Shown piece after piece: positions 2,623-23,860 of a DNA stretch of 24,072 nucleotides (within the stretch, counting starts at the first letter, position 1; the number at the start of each line of letters is the position of its first letter). A program made the translations under genes and the position numbers. The stretch is from a virus: the IMG/VR virus record IMGVR_UViG_3300044618_001302, positions 1 to 24,072 of that record, one strand, 5' to 3'. Under the pieces are notes generated by a model. That model was given only the letters and a program-made list of their open reading frames with translations. It was not told where the DNA came from and searched no databases.

Positions 2623-4982
2623 TGGCAACTAAATTCCAGGCCGACATTACACAACCCATGCAACCCTCGGCTGCTGACCCCTCTGCCCTTTCACGGCAAG
2701 AGCAGCTTAAAGCGTCTATGTTTGGGACAGTGGGCAGCTTAGTGACTCAGGGATTTGAGTTGTATAAGGATGCCTCTCTAGCCTCCATTGAGGAACAAGC
2801 TGCCGCACTTCCACGAGAGGCACTAGAGAGGGCACGAGCAGCTAGTGATGCCAAGCAGCAGCTAGTAAAAGTTGAGCAGGGAATGCAGCAGGAGTTGTCC
2901 TTTGTAGGGCCACCAACAACTGAAGAAGATGCTGCGATACGCAGCCGCATTGGTGGCTATGTAGAACAGGCGGAAAGGCTCAAGAGGGCAGCAGAAGGGG
3001 GTATGTCTCCGTCTGAATACACCATGCGGGTGCAGTCGCTAACACGGACGGCATTGGCTAAGTTTCCAGGGTTAAGCCGCGAGATTCGGCAAATGATTGG
3101 TGCAGCTACTGGGATGCCTTATGCCGATGACACGGCAGCTATGTGGTATGTGCGCAGCATGTTTGAACAGAAGCCAGAGCCTAAAGAGGGCTCTCCTGAG
3201 TTTGTTAAAAATGAAATTGAAACCATTGCCAAATACAATGGTATGTCACCAGTTGACATTAACTCACTACGCACAGCAAATCCTGCGGAATACCAACTCC
3301 TTAAGAATAAGGCGTTTGATGTGGTGTCTGTGCGACAAGCTACAGAGAATGCCAAGGTGCAAATTGATGCCCTCTATCAACAAGGTGGAGAGTCTGCCGG
3401 TAAGGCGGTGCAACTCCTTGCCAACTCTGCTGGCGCTAGGGCTGCTGTTGATATGGCTAAATGGCAAGCTGCCAATGCAGGAGTTATGGATCGCATTGCA
3501 CAAAGTGTAGCAAAAGGGGAATTGGGTGTAGCTGGTCGAAACGAAGCAGAGCTACAAATCTTGCAGGGGCAAGCCACTGCCATTATTAGCAAGTCTTATA
3601 GAGAAGCTGAGAGTGACTTGTTAAACCGCCTCACGGCAGGTACGATGGACCAAGCCACCTATGATGCACAGAAGAAAATCATTGCAGAGCACAAGACCCG
3701 TGCTCTAGGAATGTTTGATGGGAACAATCTTCTAGGCACTGCTACCGTCTTGTCTAAGTTCCGTGACAAAACCATCACCGAACAGACAAAGCAAATGGAA
3801 GTGCTCACCAGTGCTTTTGGTGTTTTTGGCGACGCTAAGGTGGCACAACGCTTCTTTGGTACCACTCCGGATAGTATGGAGCGCCGTAATATTAAGGACC
3901 AGAGCCCGGAGTTGTACAACTTACTTACCGCATATGAGGAGAGCTATAAGGGGGCATTTGGGACTGCCAACAATTTACTAGGTGCTGCGCCCATGCTAGA
4001 AGTGGGTAAGGTGCTGCGTGATGCGGTAGCCACTCCAAACGCTACACCGCCCATTGCAATGTCTCCCGGTGTCACCCCTAACGTAGCCAAAGCTGCCCTA
4101 CAGGCAGTGAAGGAGGAGGGTCAATCAGTGTGGGATAAGCTGCGCAAAGATCCTAACACCACATTGAAGACACCAGAAATTAACACCCTATCCACCATGC
4201 TTAACAATGGAGTGGAATATAATCAACCCATCATGGCAATTCGCCAAGGTGTTGCCGATGAAGCTGCCCTGTTCTTGAAGCTCCCTGAAATGGAGCGTAG
4301 TAAGGTTAAGGCCAGTGTATCAGCCACTCTAGAAGATAACAGTAGGAAAGTGGTGCGACGCACCAAAGACATTGAAACTATATTTGGAGCAAAGTTGGAA
4401 ATCGGCGTGCGTAGTGACGGCACCATTGGCGTTATTCCCCCGATGCACCTACTACGATCAACCCTACTAACCCCCACTTACGCAGCACGCAGTAGTGAGT
4501 TGTTTGGTATGTTTAATAAGTATGAGGTGATGAAGGGTAGGGATGTAATACCCGGCAAAGAGGAGGAGCTAAAAGCCTATGTCCGCGCTGCTGAAGAGTG
4601 GGAAAAGATGGAAGCCAACCGAGTGAACAACATGGTGCTAAGTCGTGCCATTACTAATAATGAGGACACACGGAATGTGGGTAAAGATATTGCTGGCCGT
4701 CTCAATAGTGGTCAACCTCTACCTAGCTTTTTTTCAATGGCCCCCGCTGCGGTAGCATTACCGGAGGTAACAGGGGGTTCCAGACCTATGCCTACAATTG
4801 GGCCTGTCCGCACTGAGAAGGCAGCCCTTAGTGCCATGCAAGTTGGCCTACAGGATTTAGCCGATCACATTGAGCAGCTAGAGCGTTCGCTAAAAGATGC
4901 CATTCCAGGAAGTGACTTGCATAAGAGATTGTCTAGTGACATTGCCATGGCTAAAAAGGAACTAGCAAGAGGAGGTCAGTGA
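2622..4982 (+). CDS. Large helical internal virion protein (786 aa)
   Basis: The ATG overlaps the stop of the upstream gene (TAATG). The protein is rich in Ala, Glu, Gln, Lys and Met, with long predicted helices, no signal peptide and no clear catalytic motif. Residues ~60-130 and the last ~50 residues (LQDLADHIEQLERSLKDA region) look like coiled coil. A low-complexity Pro/Ala stretch near residues 710-740 separates the C-terminal helix. Size, helical composition and position between another huge structural protein and the endolysin suggest an internal core or ejection protein, comparable in role to T7 gp15/gp16-type proteins. I cannot name a family. Its TGA overlaps the endolysin ATG (TGATG), so the late genes are translationally coupled. 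Confidence 0.7.
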   Translation: MATKFQADITQPMQPSAADPSALSRQEQLKASMFGTVGSLVTQGFELYKDASLASIEEQAAALPREALERARAASDAKQQLVKVEQGMQQELSFVGPPTTEEDAAIRSRIGGYVEQAERLKRAAEGGMSPSEYTMRVQSLTRTALAKFPGLSREIRQMIGAATGMPYADDTAAMWYVRSMFEQKPEPKEGSPEFVKNEIETIAKYNGMSPVDINSLRTANPAEYQLLKNKAFDVVSVRQATENAKVQIDALYQQGGESAGKAVQLLANSAGARAAVDMAKWQAANAGVMDRIAQSVAKGELGVAGRNEAELQILQGQATAIISKSYREAESDLLNRLTAGTMDQATYDAQKKIIAEHKTRALGMFDGNNLLGTATVLSKFRDKTITEQTKQMEVLTSAFGVFGDAKVAQRFFGTTPDSMERRNIKDQSPELYNLLTAYEESYKGAFGTANNLLGAAPMLEVGKVLRDAVATPNATPPIAMSPGVTPNVAKAALQAVKEEGQSVWDKLRKDPNTTLKTPEINTLSTMLNNGVEYNQPIMAIRQGVADEAALFLKLPEMERSKVKASVSATLEDNSRKVVRRTKDIETIFGAKLEIGVRSDGTIGVIPPMHLLRSTLLTPTYAARSSELFGMFNKYEVMKGRDVIPGKEEELKAYVRAAEEWEKMEANRVNNMVLSRAITNNEDTRNVGKDIAGRLNSGQPLPSFFSMAPAAVALPEVTGGSRPMPTIGPVRTEKAALSAMQVGLQDLADHIEQLERSLKDAIPGSDLHKRLSSDIAMAKKELARGGQ

Positions 4983-7298: not shown

Positions 7299-7490
7299 CT
7301 AGTTCCAAATAAACCCAATGGGTTTGGGTTGGTTATTAGTAAGGGGCTTGCCATCCGCATCTACAATTTCCTCATAAATGTGCCTGTCCCCGCTAATAGC
7401 ATAAGCTGTGCCCATTGAGGGCACTTGCCCCATGTCATACCAATAGTCATCGCACTGGACAAACGCCCGATTCACAGTCAGTTGCGTCAT
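7299..7490 (-). CDS. Hypothetical protein (63 aa) overlapping the RNR 3' end
   Basis: The ATG at 7490 (MTQLTVNRAFVQCDDYWYDM) is preceded by CGGAGTCGAAG and lies 44 nt inside the end of the ribonucleotide reductase gene, in another frame. The product looks strand-rich with several aromatic residues (DDYWYDMGQVPSMGTAY) and ends KPIGFIWN. No domain recognised. Because the overlap covers the reductase C-terminal redox cysteines, the two genes constrain each other there. Its 3' end contains a small perfect hairpin (AAACCC-ATT-GGGTTT) inside coding sequence. Confidence 0.6.
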   Translation of the reverse strand: MTQLTVNRAFVQCDDYWYDMGQVPSMGTAYAISGDRHIYEEIVDADGKPLTNNQPKPIGFIWN

Positions 7491-8330
7491 CTTCGACTCC
7501 GAAAGAAATGCCTGTAATAAGGCGTGTACTTGTAACCATTTCGTCGTGCTTTTCCTTGCTAATCTCCTCAAACGGAGCTTGCTTAAATCCATGGTCACTG
7601 TGCAGCAGGAAAGACAAACTCTTATGTCCTGTTGCATAATGGGTTGTCAAATACTCCTTAATGGCAGGTAGTTCCTCCTTTTTGTAATAGATAGTGCAGC
7701 TAACACTGTTATCACTCCAATTTTGCTGCAACTCCCGCACTACTTCCAACTGCTGTATCGCTGACATTTCTTTAGCCACCACTGTGTTGGCTGGATAAGA
7801 AAACGGGAACTCAGCGACAACAGTAGAGTAGTCAGGGCTACCATCAAAGTTTTCTTGAAACGCAACATTATACCCATGCTCCTTAATGGTGTCAACAAGT
7901 GGGTGATTAGATGCTACTCTGATACGCCGAATCATGTGCTGTGCATAGCCGGGGTGGCACCCCGGAGTAACGCCAGGAAGAAGAGATAGCGTACCGCTAG
8001 GCTTGACGGTAGTCAGCTTGACCGACTTGGGCCAACCATGCTTTGCACTATATTCTTCGTCAAAGGTACGAAGCTCCTTATACACATCACCCAACCAACT
8101 CTTTTGCTCTTTTGTAGCTTGTAGATAGCCCGTGATACCAATACCCATACGCATATTCTTATGCACTACAGCTTCCGTTTCTTTTAGATGGCACGGTAGG
8201 GCTAGAGAGTGCTTGTTAATGCGGTAGAGAAGCTGTGCTACATCACTAAGCTCTGCCTTACTAGTAATGTTAGGCAGGAAAATCTCAGCGAGGCAGCAAG
8301 TCTCATAGGGCTCTAGGGATTGTTCAGCGC
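7447..8330 (-). CDS. nrdJ: Class II ribonucleotide reductase, exon 2 (C-terminal half)
   Basis: Exon 2 starts with GCGCTGAACAA, which joins the T at 9147 to restore NPCAEQ. It encodes residues 341 (part) to 634. Visible features are Cys352 (YETCC, eleven residues after the catalytic Cys341, the same spacing as C408-C419 in the Lactobacillus leichmannii enzyme), the TTVKPSGTLSLLPG substrate loop, a WSDNSVSCTI block and the C-terminal shuttle cysteines Cys626 and Cys631 (CESGVCPVR), closely paralleling CEGGACPIK of the L. leichmannii enzyme. An in-frame ATG at 8394 lies inside the intron and is not a genuine start. It overlaps the downstream 63-residue gene by 44 nt. Confidence 0.93.
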
Positions 8331-9146
8331 CTTTATTGTTACTCCTCTTACGAGGGGATGTGTCATTTCTGCACACCTCTATGAGTTGCCCCATAGAACA
8401 GACTATATCACCACCTAAGTTTTCTTAGGGCTTATCGTCCGAGCTTATAACTGAAACTTGGAAGGACATAAGGACTTACAATTTCTTCAAACTTAGCACT
8501 GTCTTTCGCACGAAGCGACAAGTACCAATATTTACCATGGCGGTAGATGTTGAATTCCAAGTCAAGTTTTTCCTTGATGGCCTTCTTTAACAACCAGTTG
8601 TCACCGTAGCTGAATCCCTTAGTGTGGAGATTGTAGCTTGGTGTTGCATTGCATCGTTTATCCACATATCGTCCACCGTCTGCCATGAAGATAATAGCGA
8701 GTGCTTCTGCATCCAACAACGTTAGCATATGGGGATCGATTACTTTACGACCATCCAGATACACACGTTCCCAAATTGTAGTTAACTTAGGGTGCGCCTT
8801 TGACTCAAGGCGGACTTGTTCAGACCGGGTACACCCGTCTGTGTTGTAGTCCTTCCTGTCAGCAATGCGTGCACCAATGTCAGCTTCTTCCAATGTCTGC
8901 TTAGCCTTCTCCACGTAATCAATGTTGTCTTTACGCATATTCATAATGAATCGGGCGTTGACACATTTACCAGTGACGTATAAACCGCCGTCAAAGGTGG
9001 AAAAATAATACAGACGTTTACTCAGTTCTTTACTCATAGTCGTTGCACCTTCCATATCGGATTGGCACAGGATTGTCTCTGTAGAGAGTTTCCCTGTTTT
9101 TAGATAAGTTTTCCAGATAGTTTACACTATCAGGCCGCTACTGTCA
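8331..9146 (-). ncRNA. Group I intron in the RNR gene (816 nt)
   Basis: The 5' exon ends ...AACCCGT (9147) and the 3' exon starts GCGCTGAA (8330); joining them restores the Asn-Pro-Cys-Ala motif in frame. P1 is exon CCGU (9150-9147) pairing with guide GCGG (9138-9135), giving the obligatory U-G wobble at the splice site. P2 is GATAGT/ACTATC with a GTAA loop (9116-9131). P4 is ACAGG (9097-9093) with CCTGT (9071-9067), enclosing a P5 hairpin (TCTC/GAGA). P7 pairs GACTAT (9041-9036, R element GCAACGACTA) with ATAGTC (8406-8401, S element GATATAGTCTG). P9-type hairpins with GCAA and GTAA tetraloops follow, and the last intron base is G. The 5' half strongly resembles the T4 td intron, so subgroup IA is likely. 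An endonuclease gene fills the P8 region. Confidence 0.93.
8432..9037 (-). CDS. LAGLIDADG homing endonuclease inside the RNR intron
   Basis: 201 residues from the ATG at 9037 (MSKELSKRLYYF), which has GGAAGG ten bases upstream; an ATG at 9055 in the same frame lacks a ribosome binding site. The C-terminal half (from ~105) has LAIIFMADGG (113-122) as the second LAGLIDADG helix with acidic Asp120. SYNLHTKGFSYGDNWLLKKAIKEKLDLEFNI then WYLSLRAKDSAKFEEIVSPYV and PSFSYKL match the intron-encoded LAGLIDADG_2 type. The first motif is degenerate (YYFSTFDGGLYV, Asp16). It would cut intronless reductase alleles at the NPC codon and drive intron spread. Most phage intron endonucleases are GIY-YIG or HNH, so LAGLIDADG is less common here. 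The gene is intact. Confidence 0.87.
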   Translation of the reverse strand: MSKELSKRLYYFSTFDGGLYVTGKCVNARFIMNMRKDNIDYVEKAKQTLEEADIGARIADRKDYNTDGCTRSEQVRLESKAHPKLTTIWERVYLDGRKVIDPHMLTLLDAEALAIIFMADGGRYVDKRCNATPSYNLHTKGFSYGDNWLLKKAIKEKLDLEFNIYRHGKYWYLSLRAKDSAKFEEIVSPYVLPSFSYKLGR

Positions 9147-10167
9147 ACGGGTTATAGCCTTGCACAAGCGGATCAGGGTACTCAGTTTCACCTAGACGAC
9201 CAACCTTACGAGAGAGGTTCAGGTTAATGAGGCCATAGGGCTCACCCTTTCCAAGATAGCCGTCCCAAAACAACTCGTGCAAATCTGCAACGTCATTGCA
9301 TACAACGCTGTTGTTGGACATGGCACGCCAGGAGGGAATGTTACCCATATCCCACCGCTTTGCGAGCAAATACTCAATGTCGTCACAGTCCCCAATGGCA
9401 ATTTGTGCTGATCGGCGCACATTACCTGCTACAACAATAGAACCAATGATGTTCATAATGTCAAGGCAGTCAATTGGGCGCACGTTCTTGCCACTACGTT
9501 TTTCCAGAATATCAGAGATTTGTGCAATGCCATCACATAGAATCTCAGGACCACTAGCAACACCGCCAAACCCACGGATGGGAGCGCCCTTACCACGGAT
9601 GAGTTGCGGGCTGTAGGTAAAGGTACGGTCTTCCTTACGCTCGGCTAGGAATGCCGCTTTTAGCGTCTTACCCAGTAGCTTTACCCACCCTTCGCGGGTA
9701 TCAGGCACAATGAAGTCAGCACTAGCACTATCATTTCGTGTAGGGGCCTTGAAGCCACGCTTCACCTTTGGCAACTTATTAACATTCTCACGTTGAATGT
9801 TGTAGCCCACACCACTGCCGAGCATCAGCATATCCATGGCCCATGTGAATGGGCGCACGGGTTGGTCAACAACAGTGAAGGCGCAGTTTTGCAGGGAGGG
9901 TAGGCCCAAATCCTTCACTGTGCGGGTGCCAAGTTGCCAAAGAAATCGCCCTGCAACAGTGCCCTTTAGCGAGTGCATATAGCCCCGCATACGCTCTTTT
10001 TCTTCTAGCGTAAAGCCGACATTAAGTTGCTTATCAGAAGCAGTGAGGACACGATTAATAGTGTCATCCCATTCTTCAGTCGCAGAGGTGGGATCGGCGT
10101 CATTTAGGCGCCTAGCATAAGTGCGCTTGTAAGTTAAATAGCCAACAGTAGACCAAGGTGTCGTCAT
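9147..10167 (-). CDS. nrdJ: Class II (adenosylcobalamin) ribonucleotide reductase, exon 1
   Basis: It starts at ATG 10167 after AAGGAGAATAA. After splicing with 8330-7447 it gives a 634-residue enzyme (1905 nt including stop). It aligns along its length with the monomeric B12-dependent ribonucleoside triphosphate reductase of L. leichmannii (739 aa): VGYLTYKRTYARRL, LQNCAFTVV with redox Cys95, GSGVGYNIQRENV, PDTREGWV, IHGFGG-like IRGFGGVASGP, NIIGSIVVAGNVRRSAQIAIG and SNNSV. Catalytic Cys341 and Glu343 (NPCAE) form only after splicing. It reduces ribonucleotides without oxygen or a small subunit but needs adenosylcobalamin from the host. Without splicing, translation runs five codons into the intron and stops at 9130, giving an inactive 345-residue protein. 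Confidence 0.95.
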
Positions 10168-17641: not shown

Positions 17642-17854
17642 TCAATGCTCTGCGGGCAGCAAATCCCGTAGCTCACTGCGGTGCTCGGATCGCAACTTAG
17701 CAAGACGGCCGTTACATTTATGTCCTACCATGTAACCGGCGTGCGTTACTACAACGCATTGACTATGGTCAGCCCAATTTATTTCTAGCCAGAAGATATT
17801 GGGCTGTGTCTCGTTAGATACGACTGACATACTAGTAATGCCGTGTTCGATCAC
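17642..17854 (-). CDS. Small hypothetical protein (70 aa, GTG start)
   Basis: GTG 17854 follows GGAGAGTAAA and overlaps the helicase stop (GTGA). The first 45 residues look strand-rich (NIFWLEINWADHSQCVVVTH); the C-terminal third is a basic amphipathic helix (NGRLAKLRSEHRSELRDLLP). No domain recognised. An ATG eight codons in is a weaker alternative start. Confidence 0.62.
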   Translation of the reverse strand: MIEHGITSMSVVSNETQPNIFWLEINWADHSQCVVVTHAGYMVGHKCNGRLAKLRSEHRSELRDLLPAEH

Positions 17855-20103
17855 TTTACTCTCCAGTGCGAAATATATCGAGCCTTGCTCGGCTCAATGG
17901 TTACTTGAAACTTCCCATGCCTATGTGCTTCCAGGGAATCAGGCCCGCCATGCAGCTTATTCTTTGCGATGGAAATGTAGCGATCAAGGGTGCCATCGCG
18001 CGGGTCACCAATAATGATGATGCCGTCTGCTTCTCCGGGCTTGTCTGTCTTACTTCCGCGAAGGTGGTCCATTGTCACCCATTTCTCACCTTCAGCACTA
18101 CCGTCTAATTGACTCACCGCAATGACTGGGCAATGAGTTTTAGCCAACTCTCTAGCCCATTTGTATAGAGCACCAATGCGCAAGTCATCGCGGTCGTTCT
18201 TAAACCCTTGCACCTTATCTAGCTGATCGAAGATGATGAGGCCGGGCTTAAACTCCTTGCACATTCTTTCTACGGTGTGGGGGGTTACCTTAGTCTCATC
18301 ATCAGTGATGAGGAAACGATTACCGCCCGAAGCCAGAAACGCAGTTTCGTACTTACTAATAGAGGCAAACAAGTCACCTGTAGTCACTTGATGGTGAGCC
18401 TGCACTACTCTACTCATCACCTTAGCACTACCTTCTTCGTTGTTAATCCACAAAATGTGTTCATCTTCTGCCATTTGTGGCATCATGTAAGAAGCTTCAG
18501 AAGCTATCATGGTGGTGTTGTGAGTAACTGTGTAATCCCCCAGTAAGAACAGGTGGTCTTGATCCACGCAAAATCCATAATAATCACCTTCTCCAATAGG
18601 TTGCACATCAATGCCAAAATGTAGCCCCTTGCGCTTAGGTACTACTTTCGAGCGACAAAACTTTTTGCGCTCTACTTTTACGGGGATTCTATGCACATCA
18701 CCATAAATAGACACTCGCCAATAACTTACTCCGTTAACAATTTTCTCACGCATAGTGGCGTGAAAGCCCAACCCACGCGCAAGATGAAGAATTTGTGTAG
18801 CTAATCCTTTTCGTACTTGTGTTATCTCATAACCATATCGCCCGCGACTACCATCTGTGTCCAGTAACCCTGCCAGTAAGCAAAGTCTGTTTTCCTTGCA
18901 ATCCACCATATATTCATGGGGGATATGCTTGTTATTTAGCAGATTTAGTCCCGCCAAAGAATCACGGACGTAGTTCTTTTTACCTCTACCATTGTTAATA
19001 ATAGCCGAGAGTGCTTTTCCTTGGTTTGTCCTAACTTCCTCACGATAGGACACACCTACGGTAGATACATACATACGTAACCACCTCAATACTTCACAGT
19101 CTGCGTTAGTAAGATTGCTGTTTTCTGAGGTTCCATCACCTAACCACAAACCCACAAAATATGGGTGCAAAGAATGCCGTGCTTCTGGATACTCTACAGC
19201 AGCCTTCCAGCCTTTGCACCGTGCTTTTGTGCTTTTGGGAAGTGCAAGGTAGTCTCGTACACTGATGTTTAGTACATCGCCATTCTTATGCTTACCCTCG
19301 GTTTTGGAGCGCTTCAAAGAAAGAATATGGTCTTCGTTCACCACGTAACTTTCTCCAAACCCGTAACTGACACGGTAGAGCATGCTACTACCCTTAGTCA
19401 CACCTGATACTAAGCGCGGTGCGTTACCTGGGCCAGCAACTACATCACCATTTTGCACATCCTGTACATTTTTAATAGTACCATTATGCATAAGAACGGG
19501 AGTGTCTTTACCTAGGCATTTACCCGCCTCGGGACGAGCGGCAAGGATGATGAAATCACCCTTCCTTAGCGGCCCAAGTGATACATTAAGCTCTGTAAGG
19601 CGCCACTGTAGTCCCTTACTTGCAACCACGCTGCTAATGTAGCTAAGAGAAGGGGGAACAAATAGCTTAGTCCTATCGAGTGTTGCCCCAATTTCCTTAT
19701 CACGCTCATCCATAAAGTTACGAACATTGTCCAGGCTAGTGCCAGTGCGTCCCACACTGACGCCCAAAACTTCGTCATAGATGAGTGTTGCATAGTGCTT
19801 CTCAATGAGGGCTTTTTCAATGGCTTCTAGGGGTGCCGTAGTGGTTGGTTTCTTCAGTAGGTCAAAGGCAGCTTCATATGCAGCAGGGTCTTTAAGTTTC
19901 TTGCCTCGGCAAATGTAGAAGAATGTGCGTAGAGTGTCAATGTCCAAGGCAGTGTGTGCGGGGTAGTTATCCCAATAGTCACCCACTACAGAGAAAATGT
20001 CACTTGTAATGGAAGAGACATTGCTCTTCTTAATAAGGGGGGCAAAGCGTGCCCACTTATCCTTATCTGCTGCTAGTCGAAGAATGTCAATGTCATAGCT
20101 CAT
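17851..20103 (-). CDS. DnaB/T7 gp4-type replicative helicase interrupted by an intein
   Basis: 750-residue precursor; removing the 334-residue intein leaves 416 residues. Residues 1-195 are an N-terminal helical domain plus the start of a RecA fold. The P-loop is ARPEAGK then, after the intein, TTMIASEA, together ARPEAGKTT (Walker A). GLIIFDQLDKV is Walker B, PVIAVSQLDGS the next RecA motif, and DHLRGSKTDKPGEADGIIII the region that in SF4 helicases holds sensor and Arg-finger residues. It lacks a primase domain; primase is a separate gene at 20652, so the T7 gp4 functions are split. ATG 20103 follows GGGAGTTTAG. Activity requires intein excision, because the P-loop Thr is otherwise displaced. 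Confidence 0.94.
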   Translation of the reverse strand: MSYDIDILRLAADKDKWARFAPLIKKSNVSSITSDIFSVVGDYWDNYPAHTALDIDTLRTFFYICRGKKLKDPAAYEAAFDLLKKPTTTAPLEAIEKALIEKHYATLIYDEVLGVSVGRTGTSLDNVRNFMDERDKEIGATLDRTKLFVPPSLSYISSVVASKGLQWRLTELNVSLGPLRKGDFIILAARPEAGKCLGKDTPVLMHNGTIKNVQDVQNGDVVAGPGNAPRLVSGVTKGSSMLYRVSYGFGESYVVNEDHILSLKRSKTEGKHKNGDVLNISVRDYLALPKSTKARCKGWKAAVEYPEARHSLHPYFVGLWLGDGTSENSNLTNADCEVLRWLRMYVSTVGVSYREEVRTNQGKALSAIINNGRGKKNYVRDSLAGLNLLNNKHIPHEYMVDCKENRLCLLAGLLDTDGSRGRYGYEITQVRKGLATQILHLARGLGFHATMREKIVNGVSYWRVSIYGDVHRIPVKVERKKFCRSKVVPKRKGLHFGIDVQPIGEGDYYGFCVDQDHLFLLGDYTVTHNTTMIASEASYMMPQMAEDEHILWINNEEGSAKVMSRVVQAHHQVTTGDLFASISKYETAFLASGGNRFLITDDETKVTPHTVERMCKEFKPGLIIFDQLDKVQGFKNDRDDLRIGALYKWARELAKTHCPVIAVSQLDGSAEGEKWVTMDHLRGSKTDKPGEADGIIIIGDPRDGTLDRYISIAKNKLHGGPDSLEAHRHGKFQVTIEPSKARYISHWRVK
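18517..19518 (-). mobile_element. Intein with LAGLIDADG endonuclease in the helicase P-loop
   Basis: 334 residues, precursor 196-529. Residue 1 is Cys (CLGKDTPVLMHNG, block A). Block B is VVNEDHILSL with His64; the usual TxxH reads NxxH. Endonuclease motifs are FVGLWLGDG (121-129) and LLAGLLDTDG (214-223), each ending in the acidic residue. Block F is YYGFCVDQDHLFLL; block G is DYTVTHN followed by Thr as the +1 residue. The insertion point, between Lys and Thr of the Walker A motif, is a known site for DnaB-type inteins. All residues needed for splicing and cleavage appear intact, so it is probably active. Codon usage is close to that of the phage. Confidence 0.95.
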
Positions 20104-22700: not shown

Positions 22701-22802
22701 TTACCAATGCACGATGATTGCAATGAGGAGTGCCGTGATTGTGGCGGCTAGGCAAACCTCCACAAACAAAGACCATTTACGTGGCAGGAATAGGCGCCAC
22801 AT
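22701..22802 (-). CDS. Single-pass membrane miniprotein (33 aa)
   Basis: MWRLFLPRKWSLFVEV then CLAATITALLIAIIVHW. The ATG overlaps the AAA+ gene stop (TGATG), with GAGGAAGTGTG upstream. A positively charged, Trp-containing N-terminus and a ~20-residue hydrophobic helix indicate a cytoplasmic-side-in single-span peptide. Downstream, 22657-22700 has a hairpin GGGGC-CTTGT-GCCCC without a clear U-tract and no gene. The function is unknown. Confidence 0.55.
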   Translation of the reverse strand: MWRLFLPRKWSLFVEVCLAATITALLIAIIVHW

Positions 22803-23860
22803 CACACTTCCTCGCCAAACACCTTGCGGTAGATTTCCGAGACAGCTTTCTTGTCATCATCATGCAGCTTTTGCATGTAGGCTACCCGGAAGGCATGACC
22901 TTGCGAGTAACGCCCCATCTTGCGACCCCAATTGATGAGGGTACGAGGGCTCATGGTGAGGCCCAGTTTACCGCTGTCATACGCACTGCGCACTAGACCC
23001 GCCATCTTCACCATATCCTGAGCCAGTGCCTTCGGCACGCTGGTGCGGCTAGTGATGATGGATACTTCGTGAGTGGCACTCAGGTAGTCCAGCCGGATCG
23101 TATTAGTAAAGCGGTCAATGGTGGCAGTGTTTTGCACGCCTACACCATTGAATGCACCCGTGGTGTCACCCTGGCCCACCGTGTTACCGGCAAAGACAAG
23201 GCGGAAATTATCATGGGGGACGCATGTGCGGTCAGCACTGGTGCCCGGCTTCTCTTTCAGGTAGAGATAACCACCATCTTCCAGCAGGTTTTGCATGCCC
23301 ATTGCAATTTCTGCGGGCATCAGTTCCCACTCGTCAACAAGGCATACAGCACCATACTTGACAGCTTCAGTGATGGCACCATCGCGCCACACAGTGGCCC
23401 CGCCTTCGACAACAAGCGTGCCAAAGAGTGAGGCACTCTCCACATCACCGGACATATTGATGCGGATGAAGGGCCTATTCAACATGGCGCATACATACTT
23501 CACCATCGAACTTTTCCCGCTGCCCGTAGGGCCTGTGAGAAGAGTCTTGTCGTTATCCTCAATGCCAGCAACAAGTAGTGCCGCCTCCTCATTTTGCACT
23601 ACATAATCAGGATCAACAGTGGGCACAAGGCGGGCAATTTCGGGATTGCTATTAGTAGGTAGCACAGTGACAGCGAAATCACCGAATGATGGCACGTAAC
23701 CAAACACATCAGAAAACTTGGTAGCACCCTTCGGAATGCTAACCTTCGGCACTTCCGGTGCAGTCTTCTCTACCTTTTTCTTGGTGGCAGGTACCTCAGC
23801 AGCACCCTTGTCAGTAATCTCGCGGAGCTTTGCGAGGAGTTCAGCAGCGACTTCAGCCAT
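22802..23860 (-). CDS. AAA+ ATPase of the CobS/MoxR (AAA_5) type
   Basis: 352 residues. Charged, Lys-rich N-terminal ~45 residues, then LLTGPTGSGKSSMV (107-120, Walker A), VCLVDEWEL (172-180, Walker B, Asp176 Glu177), FAGNTVG (sensor 1, Asn226) and TMSPRTLINWG (sensor 2 region). This is the CobS-like / MoxR family that works with a VWA-domain partner; the next gene upstream encodes one. In cells CobS-CobT help insert cobalt into B12; in phages the pair is often annotated CobS/CobT but its role is unproven. ATG 23860 is preceded by AAGGAAATTTAATC. Confidence 0.85.
   Translation of the reverse strand: MAEVAAELLAKLREITDKGAAEVPATKKKVEKTAPEVPKVSIPKGATKFSDVFGYVPSFGDFAVTVLPTNSNPEIARLVPTVDPDYVVQNEEAALLVAGIEDNDKTLLTGPTGSGKSSMVKYVCAMLNRPFIRINMSGDVESASLFGTLVVEGGATVWRDGAITEAVKYGAVCLVDEWELMPAEIAMGMQNLLEDGGYLYLKEKPGTSADRTCVPHDNFRLVFAGNTVGQGDTTGAFNGVGVQNTATIDRFTNTIRLDYLSATHEVSIITSRTSVPKALAQDMVKMAGLVRSAYDSGKLGLTMSPRTLINWGRKMGRYSQGHAFRVAYMQKLHDDDKKAVSEIYRKVFGEEV

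Follow-up and report, generated by a model that had tools for sequence, protein, structure and literature searches.

A probable mobile group I intron with a LAGLIDADG endonuclease at the catalytic codon of a phage class II ribonucleotide reductase gene

In a viral sequence of 24,072 nt (IMG/VR record IMGVR_UViG_3300044618_001302, the whole of which we call the window), a ribonucleotide reductase gene on the minus strand is interrupted by 816 nt (8331–9146) within the codon for its catalytic cysteine. What is this insert, how could the gene still yield an active enzyme, and how did the insert come to lie in that codon? The original prediction held that it is a group I intron whose borders can be placed to the base. 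By Rfam cmscan, the window gave a single match, to the group I intron family RF00028 on the minus strand (8379–9155, 60.1 bits, E 3.6e-13), which passes the gathering score of 50. Removal of the 816 nt joins ...GGCTATAACCCGT, ending at 9147, to GCGCTGAACAATCC, starting at 8330 (AACCCGT-GCGCTGAA across the exon join in DNA), and produces one frame of 634 codons that reads QGYNP-C-AEQSLEPYETCCLAE across the junction. The positions of the exons and intron elements are collected in Table 1.

Table 1. Reductase exons and elements of the intron in the window, in transcript order
Feature	Positions	Strand	Support
Exon 1 of class II reductase gene: codons 1–340 and T of the Cys341 codon	9147–10167	-	
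816-nt group I intron beginning with T and ending with omega-G (8331)	8331–9146	-	RF00028 60.1 bits, splice join, relatives
P1: exon CCGU (9150–9147) with guide GCGG (9138–9135), U.G at splice site	9135–9150	-	Covaries with exon in relatives
P2 hairpin GAUAGU-GUAA-ACUAUC	9116–9131	-	98.1% paired vs 45.3% in control
P3 5′ strand CUUAUC	9103–9108	-	Pairs with GAUAAG (8431–8436), 99.4% vs 77.2% in control
P7 5′ strand GACUAU; last two bases open the endonuclease start codon (AUG 9037–9035)	9036–9041	-	
LAGLIDADG_2 homing endonuclease, 201 aa (207-aa in-frame form from ATG 9055)	8432–9037	-	PF03161 67.4 bits
P3 3′ strand GAUAAG; holds endonuclease stop UAA (8434–8432)	8431–8436	-	
P8 hairpin CCUAAG-AAAA-CUUAGG	8414–8429	-	98.1% vs 80.0% in control
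P7 3′ strand AUAGUC	8401–8406	-	Invariant across relatives
P9 hairpin CUAUGGGG-CA-ACUCAUAG	8379–8396	-	100% vs 67.0% in control
Exon 2: GC of the Cys341 codon through stop; C-terminal end CESGVCPVR	7447–8330	-	

The boundaries are fixed independently of the intron itself, because intronless alleles read straight across the site. We collected 80 close relatives by searching with exon 1 alone, a query that favours neither intron state, and 77 of them are unbroken there, mostly as [QM]GYNPCAEQSLA or a near variant. The three exceptions have almost the same sequence as the window. Of these, L125 and L127 have the intron, and the available part of L126 breaks off 17 bases after exon 1. The intron of the window itself turned up only in a few near-identical contigs. 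Comparison with intronless class II reductases, which had been put forward as a check, thus upholds both the intron and its base-exact borders.

Judged by its sequence, the host gene product is a B12-dependent (adenosylcobalamin, class II, RTPR-type) ribonucleotide reductase. A phmmer search of the PDB matched the spliced protein to the Lactobacillus leichmannii RTPR (1L1L, E 6.5e-78). In the alignment, Cys341, whose codon is split, corresponds to Cys408 of that enzyme, with NPCAE facing NPCGE in the N-x-C-x-E motif. The best family by far was TIGR02505 (RTPR, NCBIfam) at 334.3 bits, slightly below its curated cut-off of 340.05, and exon 1 matches the Pfam RNR-II insertion domain. The spliced frame of 634 residues is intact, with conserved motifs up to the C-terminus. 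The reductase had been called a monomeric-type class II enzyme, split in the codon of its catalytic cysteine; both assignments, and the residue numbers given with them, agree with these alignments. In the unspliced transcript, the reading frame of exon 1 reaches a stop codon five codons past the splice site, and the frame leading into exon 2 gives GGC (Gly) in place of the catalytic Cys. Since exon 1 stops before Cys341 and the exon 2 frame has Gly, neither unspliced fragment could be active, as first argued.

The insert also encodes a protein. Its reading frame matches Pfam PF03161 (LAGLIDADG_2) at 67.4 bits against a cut-off of 25, and phrog_11023. Its relatives of solved structure, by sequence, are I-WcaI (6X1J) and I-SceI. 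An AlphaFold2 model of the endonuclease (pLDDT 92.8, pTM 0.89) superposes on these with TM-scores of 0.82 and 0.79, respectively, and shares their single-chain, two-motif LAGLIDADG fold; however, identity in the aligned structures is just 16–20%, and the target sites are different. The aspartates of the two LAGLIDADG motifs, D16 and D120, are invariant or nearly so across relatives. Between relatives, dN/dS is 0.05–0.26, and the endonuclease is therefore under purifying selection. The initial description of the intron was thus correct for the ribozyme and its borders but overlooked the LAGLIDADG frame and the lineage to which the intron belongs.

We assembled that lineage through relatives of the endonuclease. 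A search led in this way would miss same-site introns that have no endonuclease or a very different one, and distant relatives in other genes; it found 26 further distinct introns (27 in total, de-duplicated), and all 27 lie in ribonucleotide reductase genes. In 24 of these, the same catalytic-Cys codon is split after its first base in an NrdJ gene, within the motif NPC (RTPR-type) or NAC (NrdJ_Z-type). One intron, in Pseudomonas phage SPA01 (L096, OP875100), follows immediately on the NLC-motif Cys codon of a class I NrdA. The last two interrupt NrdB, in Pseudomonas phage FBPa8 (L097, ON857932) and on contig L123; the codon they split is that of the Phe immediately preceding a conserved Tyr, which is probably the radical tyrosine. 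The U preceding the 5′ splice site and the terminal G, both noted at the outset in the window, occur in every one of the 27, and in each the frame entering from exon 1 meets a stop within 11 codons of that site. SPA01 and FBPa8 are isolated phages; in GenBank, the pieces of the SPA01 gene are annotated as hypothetical proteins, FBPa8 has one NrdB fragment named, and the introns are unannotated.

A matching endonuclease also occurs in HHBS10_2 (PQ287653). Contig L124 (JACGUG010000077.1) carries a lineage endonuclease and an NrdJ exon 1, with P7 altered to GACUGU/ACAGUC and GUG as the start codon. It was binned as part of an archaeal MAG, but we did not take it as good evidence of an archaeal host: the contig has only 4,359 bases, its nrdJ resembles viral NPC-type genes, and it is probably viral. 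A match in a crAss-like phage (L098) was left out of the lineage, as it lies between replicative-helicase fragments and is 28.5% identical.

Does the RNA have the anatomy of a ribozyme? We aligned the intron cores without the reading frame and used as a control two strands drawn from different sequences. P1 (exon with guide), P2, P3, P4, P6a, P8 and P9 were 98–100% paired, against 45–85% in the control, with many compensatory changes; pairing in P5 was weaker (83.3%). P7 is invariant among the aligned introns and, because it does not vary, gives no covariation support. In P1, exon and guide change jointly, as CCGU/GCGG, CCUU/GAGG, GCGU/GCGC, GCAU/GUGC and GCUU/GAGC. For the NrdA intron of SPA01, the guide by eye is GCAC, which pairs with exon GUGU, where the MAFFT alignment had GCGU. 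A P10 pairing was also sought by eye among the introns, and no consistent one was found.

The endonuclease frame is located between the 5′ strand of P7 and the 3′ strand of P3, such that the P3 partner comes after the frame. Its start codon overlaps P7 by two bases (GACUAUG), and the stop codon of the window's frame falls inside the 3′ strand of P3 (GAUAAG), an arrangement in which ribozyme folding and endonuclease translation may compete. In the Rfam alignment, the frame is drawn within L8 instead. We rejected this placement: the P3 partner that follows the frame covaries with the P3 5′ strand, and P8 is a local hairpin beyond it. In group IA introns, P7.1 and P7.2 are expected between P7 and the 3′ strand of P3; in the window's intron, the reading frame takes the position of this subgroup feature. 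One NrdJ gene of the lineage (L087) holds a second, endonuclease-free group I intron (4707–4941, Rfam 96.4 bits) 13 codons downstream of the first, with two small hairpins where the first has its reading frame, as P7.1 and P7.2 would lead one to expect. Introns L112, L113 and L114 have a shortened 3′ part, in which P9 alone is kept and the other 3′ hairpins are gone.

The relationships among the introns do not follow those of their host genes. Compared with the window, L085 has an intron 82% identical in DNA and an endonuclease 87% identical in protein, yet its host NrdJ is only 31% identical; the element has therefore moved between very divergent reductases. L119 and L120 show the opposite, with NrdJ proteins 67–68% identical to that of the window and endonucleases 48–50% identical. 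On the endonuclease tree, the AU test rejects a single clade for introns of window-type NrdJ (p 6e-98); host-gene labels require nine changes against a minimum of five. The sequences show transfers between divergent nrd genes to have taken place, by a route that we infer below. Among the 18 intron-bearing genes with Pro just before the split codon (16 NrdJ, 2 NrdB), 17 use CCG for it, against 3 of 149 intronless window-type loci, in a count whose rows are not independent and include some contigs twice. This bias fits either a pairing requirement of P1 or co-transfer of exon bases.

Taken together, these data make it very probable that the insert is a mobile group I intron in a phage RTPR-type class II reductase gene, predicted to self-splice and to home by way of its LAGLIDADG endonuclease at the catalytic codon. 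From its anatomy and covariation, the intron RNA would fold and cut after the U of the Cys341 codon, at the U.G pair of P1. The intron would then leave with its terminal G and the exons would be joined, restoring the thiyl-radical cysteine. Intronless nrd alleles are probably cleaved by the endonuclease at this codon, and the intron would be copied in as the break is repaired. Because its target encodes residues that cannot change, the same element could enter reductase genes that are otherwise very different. Where donor and recipient have little in common outside the active-site codons, the transfer could have gone through intermediate hosts, relied on very short homology or proceeded by reverse splicing. 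The presence of close relatives in one and the same codon of very different reductases suggests an element that spreads by targeting a stretch of gene that cannot change. With some reserve, we also lean towards a broader reading, in which a single lineage of group I intron and LAGLIDADG enzyme is specialised for codons of radical chemistry in ribonucleotide reductases of more than one class. Its sites would be the thiyl-Cys codon in class II enzymes of both the RTPR and NrdJ_Z types, the place immediately following the equivalent Cys codon in a class I NrdA, and the codon beside the probable radical Tyr in NrdB. Such a lineage would cross between genes whose divergence leaves no ordinary flanking homology, since the active-site DNA is itself the shared target, the guide changing with each exon.

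Other explanations of the locus must be weighed against this one. The gene might be split without any splicing, its two fragments being translated separately and assembling as in the NrdA of Aeromonas phage Aeh1 (PMC3653736, PMC7344957); the frame of exon 2 is indeed open upstream into the intron, with an ATG at 8394. We rejected this on catalytic grounds and give it next to no credence. The upstream piece ends before Cys341 and the downstream piece has Gly (GGC) there, so the radical cysteine would come from neither half, and the covarying ribozyme core would be left unexplained. It is scarcely more credible that the intron or its endonuclease has decayed, leaving a dead insert and an inactive reductase in this phage, given that the core helices are intact, the endonuclease frame is intact and under selection, and the exon frame is open with its motifs conserved throughout.

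The intron might instead be a domesticated switch, retained for delaying or tuning reductase activity and not mainly for homing. Phage introns have been suggested to act as molecular on-switches (PMC11878797). With the catalytic codon interrupted, the enzyme can be active only after splicing, and the overlap of the endonuclease start codon with P7 may let translation and ribozyme folding interfere with each other. Even so, we consider this unlikely: occurrence is sporadic, 77 of the 80 near relatives being without the intron, and selection on the endonuclease and transfer among divergent nrd genes suit a mobile element better.

The mobile intron that we favour is of a kind already known, that of mobile group I introns in conserved replication genes, and the preference of such introns for conserved functional sites is established. 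Many readers will know group I introns from phage nrd genes; the cases listed in the surveyed papers belong to class I or III and have HNH or GIY-YIG endonucleases (PMC3653736, PMC1995217, PMC7344957, PMC11878797). Those of T4 nrdB and nrdD, Twort nrdE, SPbeta bnrdE and bnrdF, Bastillevirinae rNDPL and Pectobacterium phage CB7 are likewise ribozymes that interrupt a reductase gene close to conserved residues, and many of them encode a homing endonuclease. Unlike these, the window's intron is in a class II gene, encodes a LAGLIDADG_2 enzyme and splits the catalytic-Cys codon itself. A 2013 survey listed two split phage nrdJ genes, in phiYS40 and P60, and described an intron in neither (PMC3653736). 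A 2025 survey of Bastillevirinae has a single group I intron with a LAGLIDADG_2 endonuclease, in a Nitunavirus DNA polymerase gene (PMC11878797); that endonuclease belongs to the same PHROG (phrog_11023), but the host gene is different.

Cyanobacterial ribonucleotide reductases are usually class II. In the ribonucleotide reductase (RIR) gene of Nostoc punctiforme, a group I intron has been reported (Meng 2007). It resembles the window's intron in type and in kind of host gene, though it is chromosomal and, according to the title of the paper, carries an insertion sequence element. In the literature surveyed, we found neither this lineage described, nor its recurrence at the catalytic-Cys codon in several reductase families, nor an endonuclease frame placed between P7 and the 3′ strand of P3; earlier reports may exist elsewhere.

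The idea that mobile introns persist at sites their hosts cannot change becomes directly testable here, with the same catalytic codon occupied by one element in reductases only about 30% identical and the guide RNA altered to fit the exon. The lineage also provides a family of endonucleases whose targets vary naturally. Reductase genes that are split and lack annotation are found both in environmental phages and in named Pseudomonas phages.

Elsewhere in the window, two genes on the minus strand bear on the same phage. A CobS/MoxR-like AAA ATPase (22802–23860; phrog_249, porphyrin biosynthesis) accompanies the B12-dependent reductase. A DnaB-like helicase gene (17851–20103) has an apparent intein with Hint and LAGLIDADG_3 domains, which by eye breaks into the Walker A motif (AGK...T) and would give this phage another mobile element in an active-site codon.
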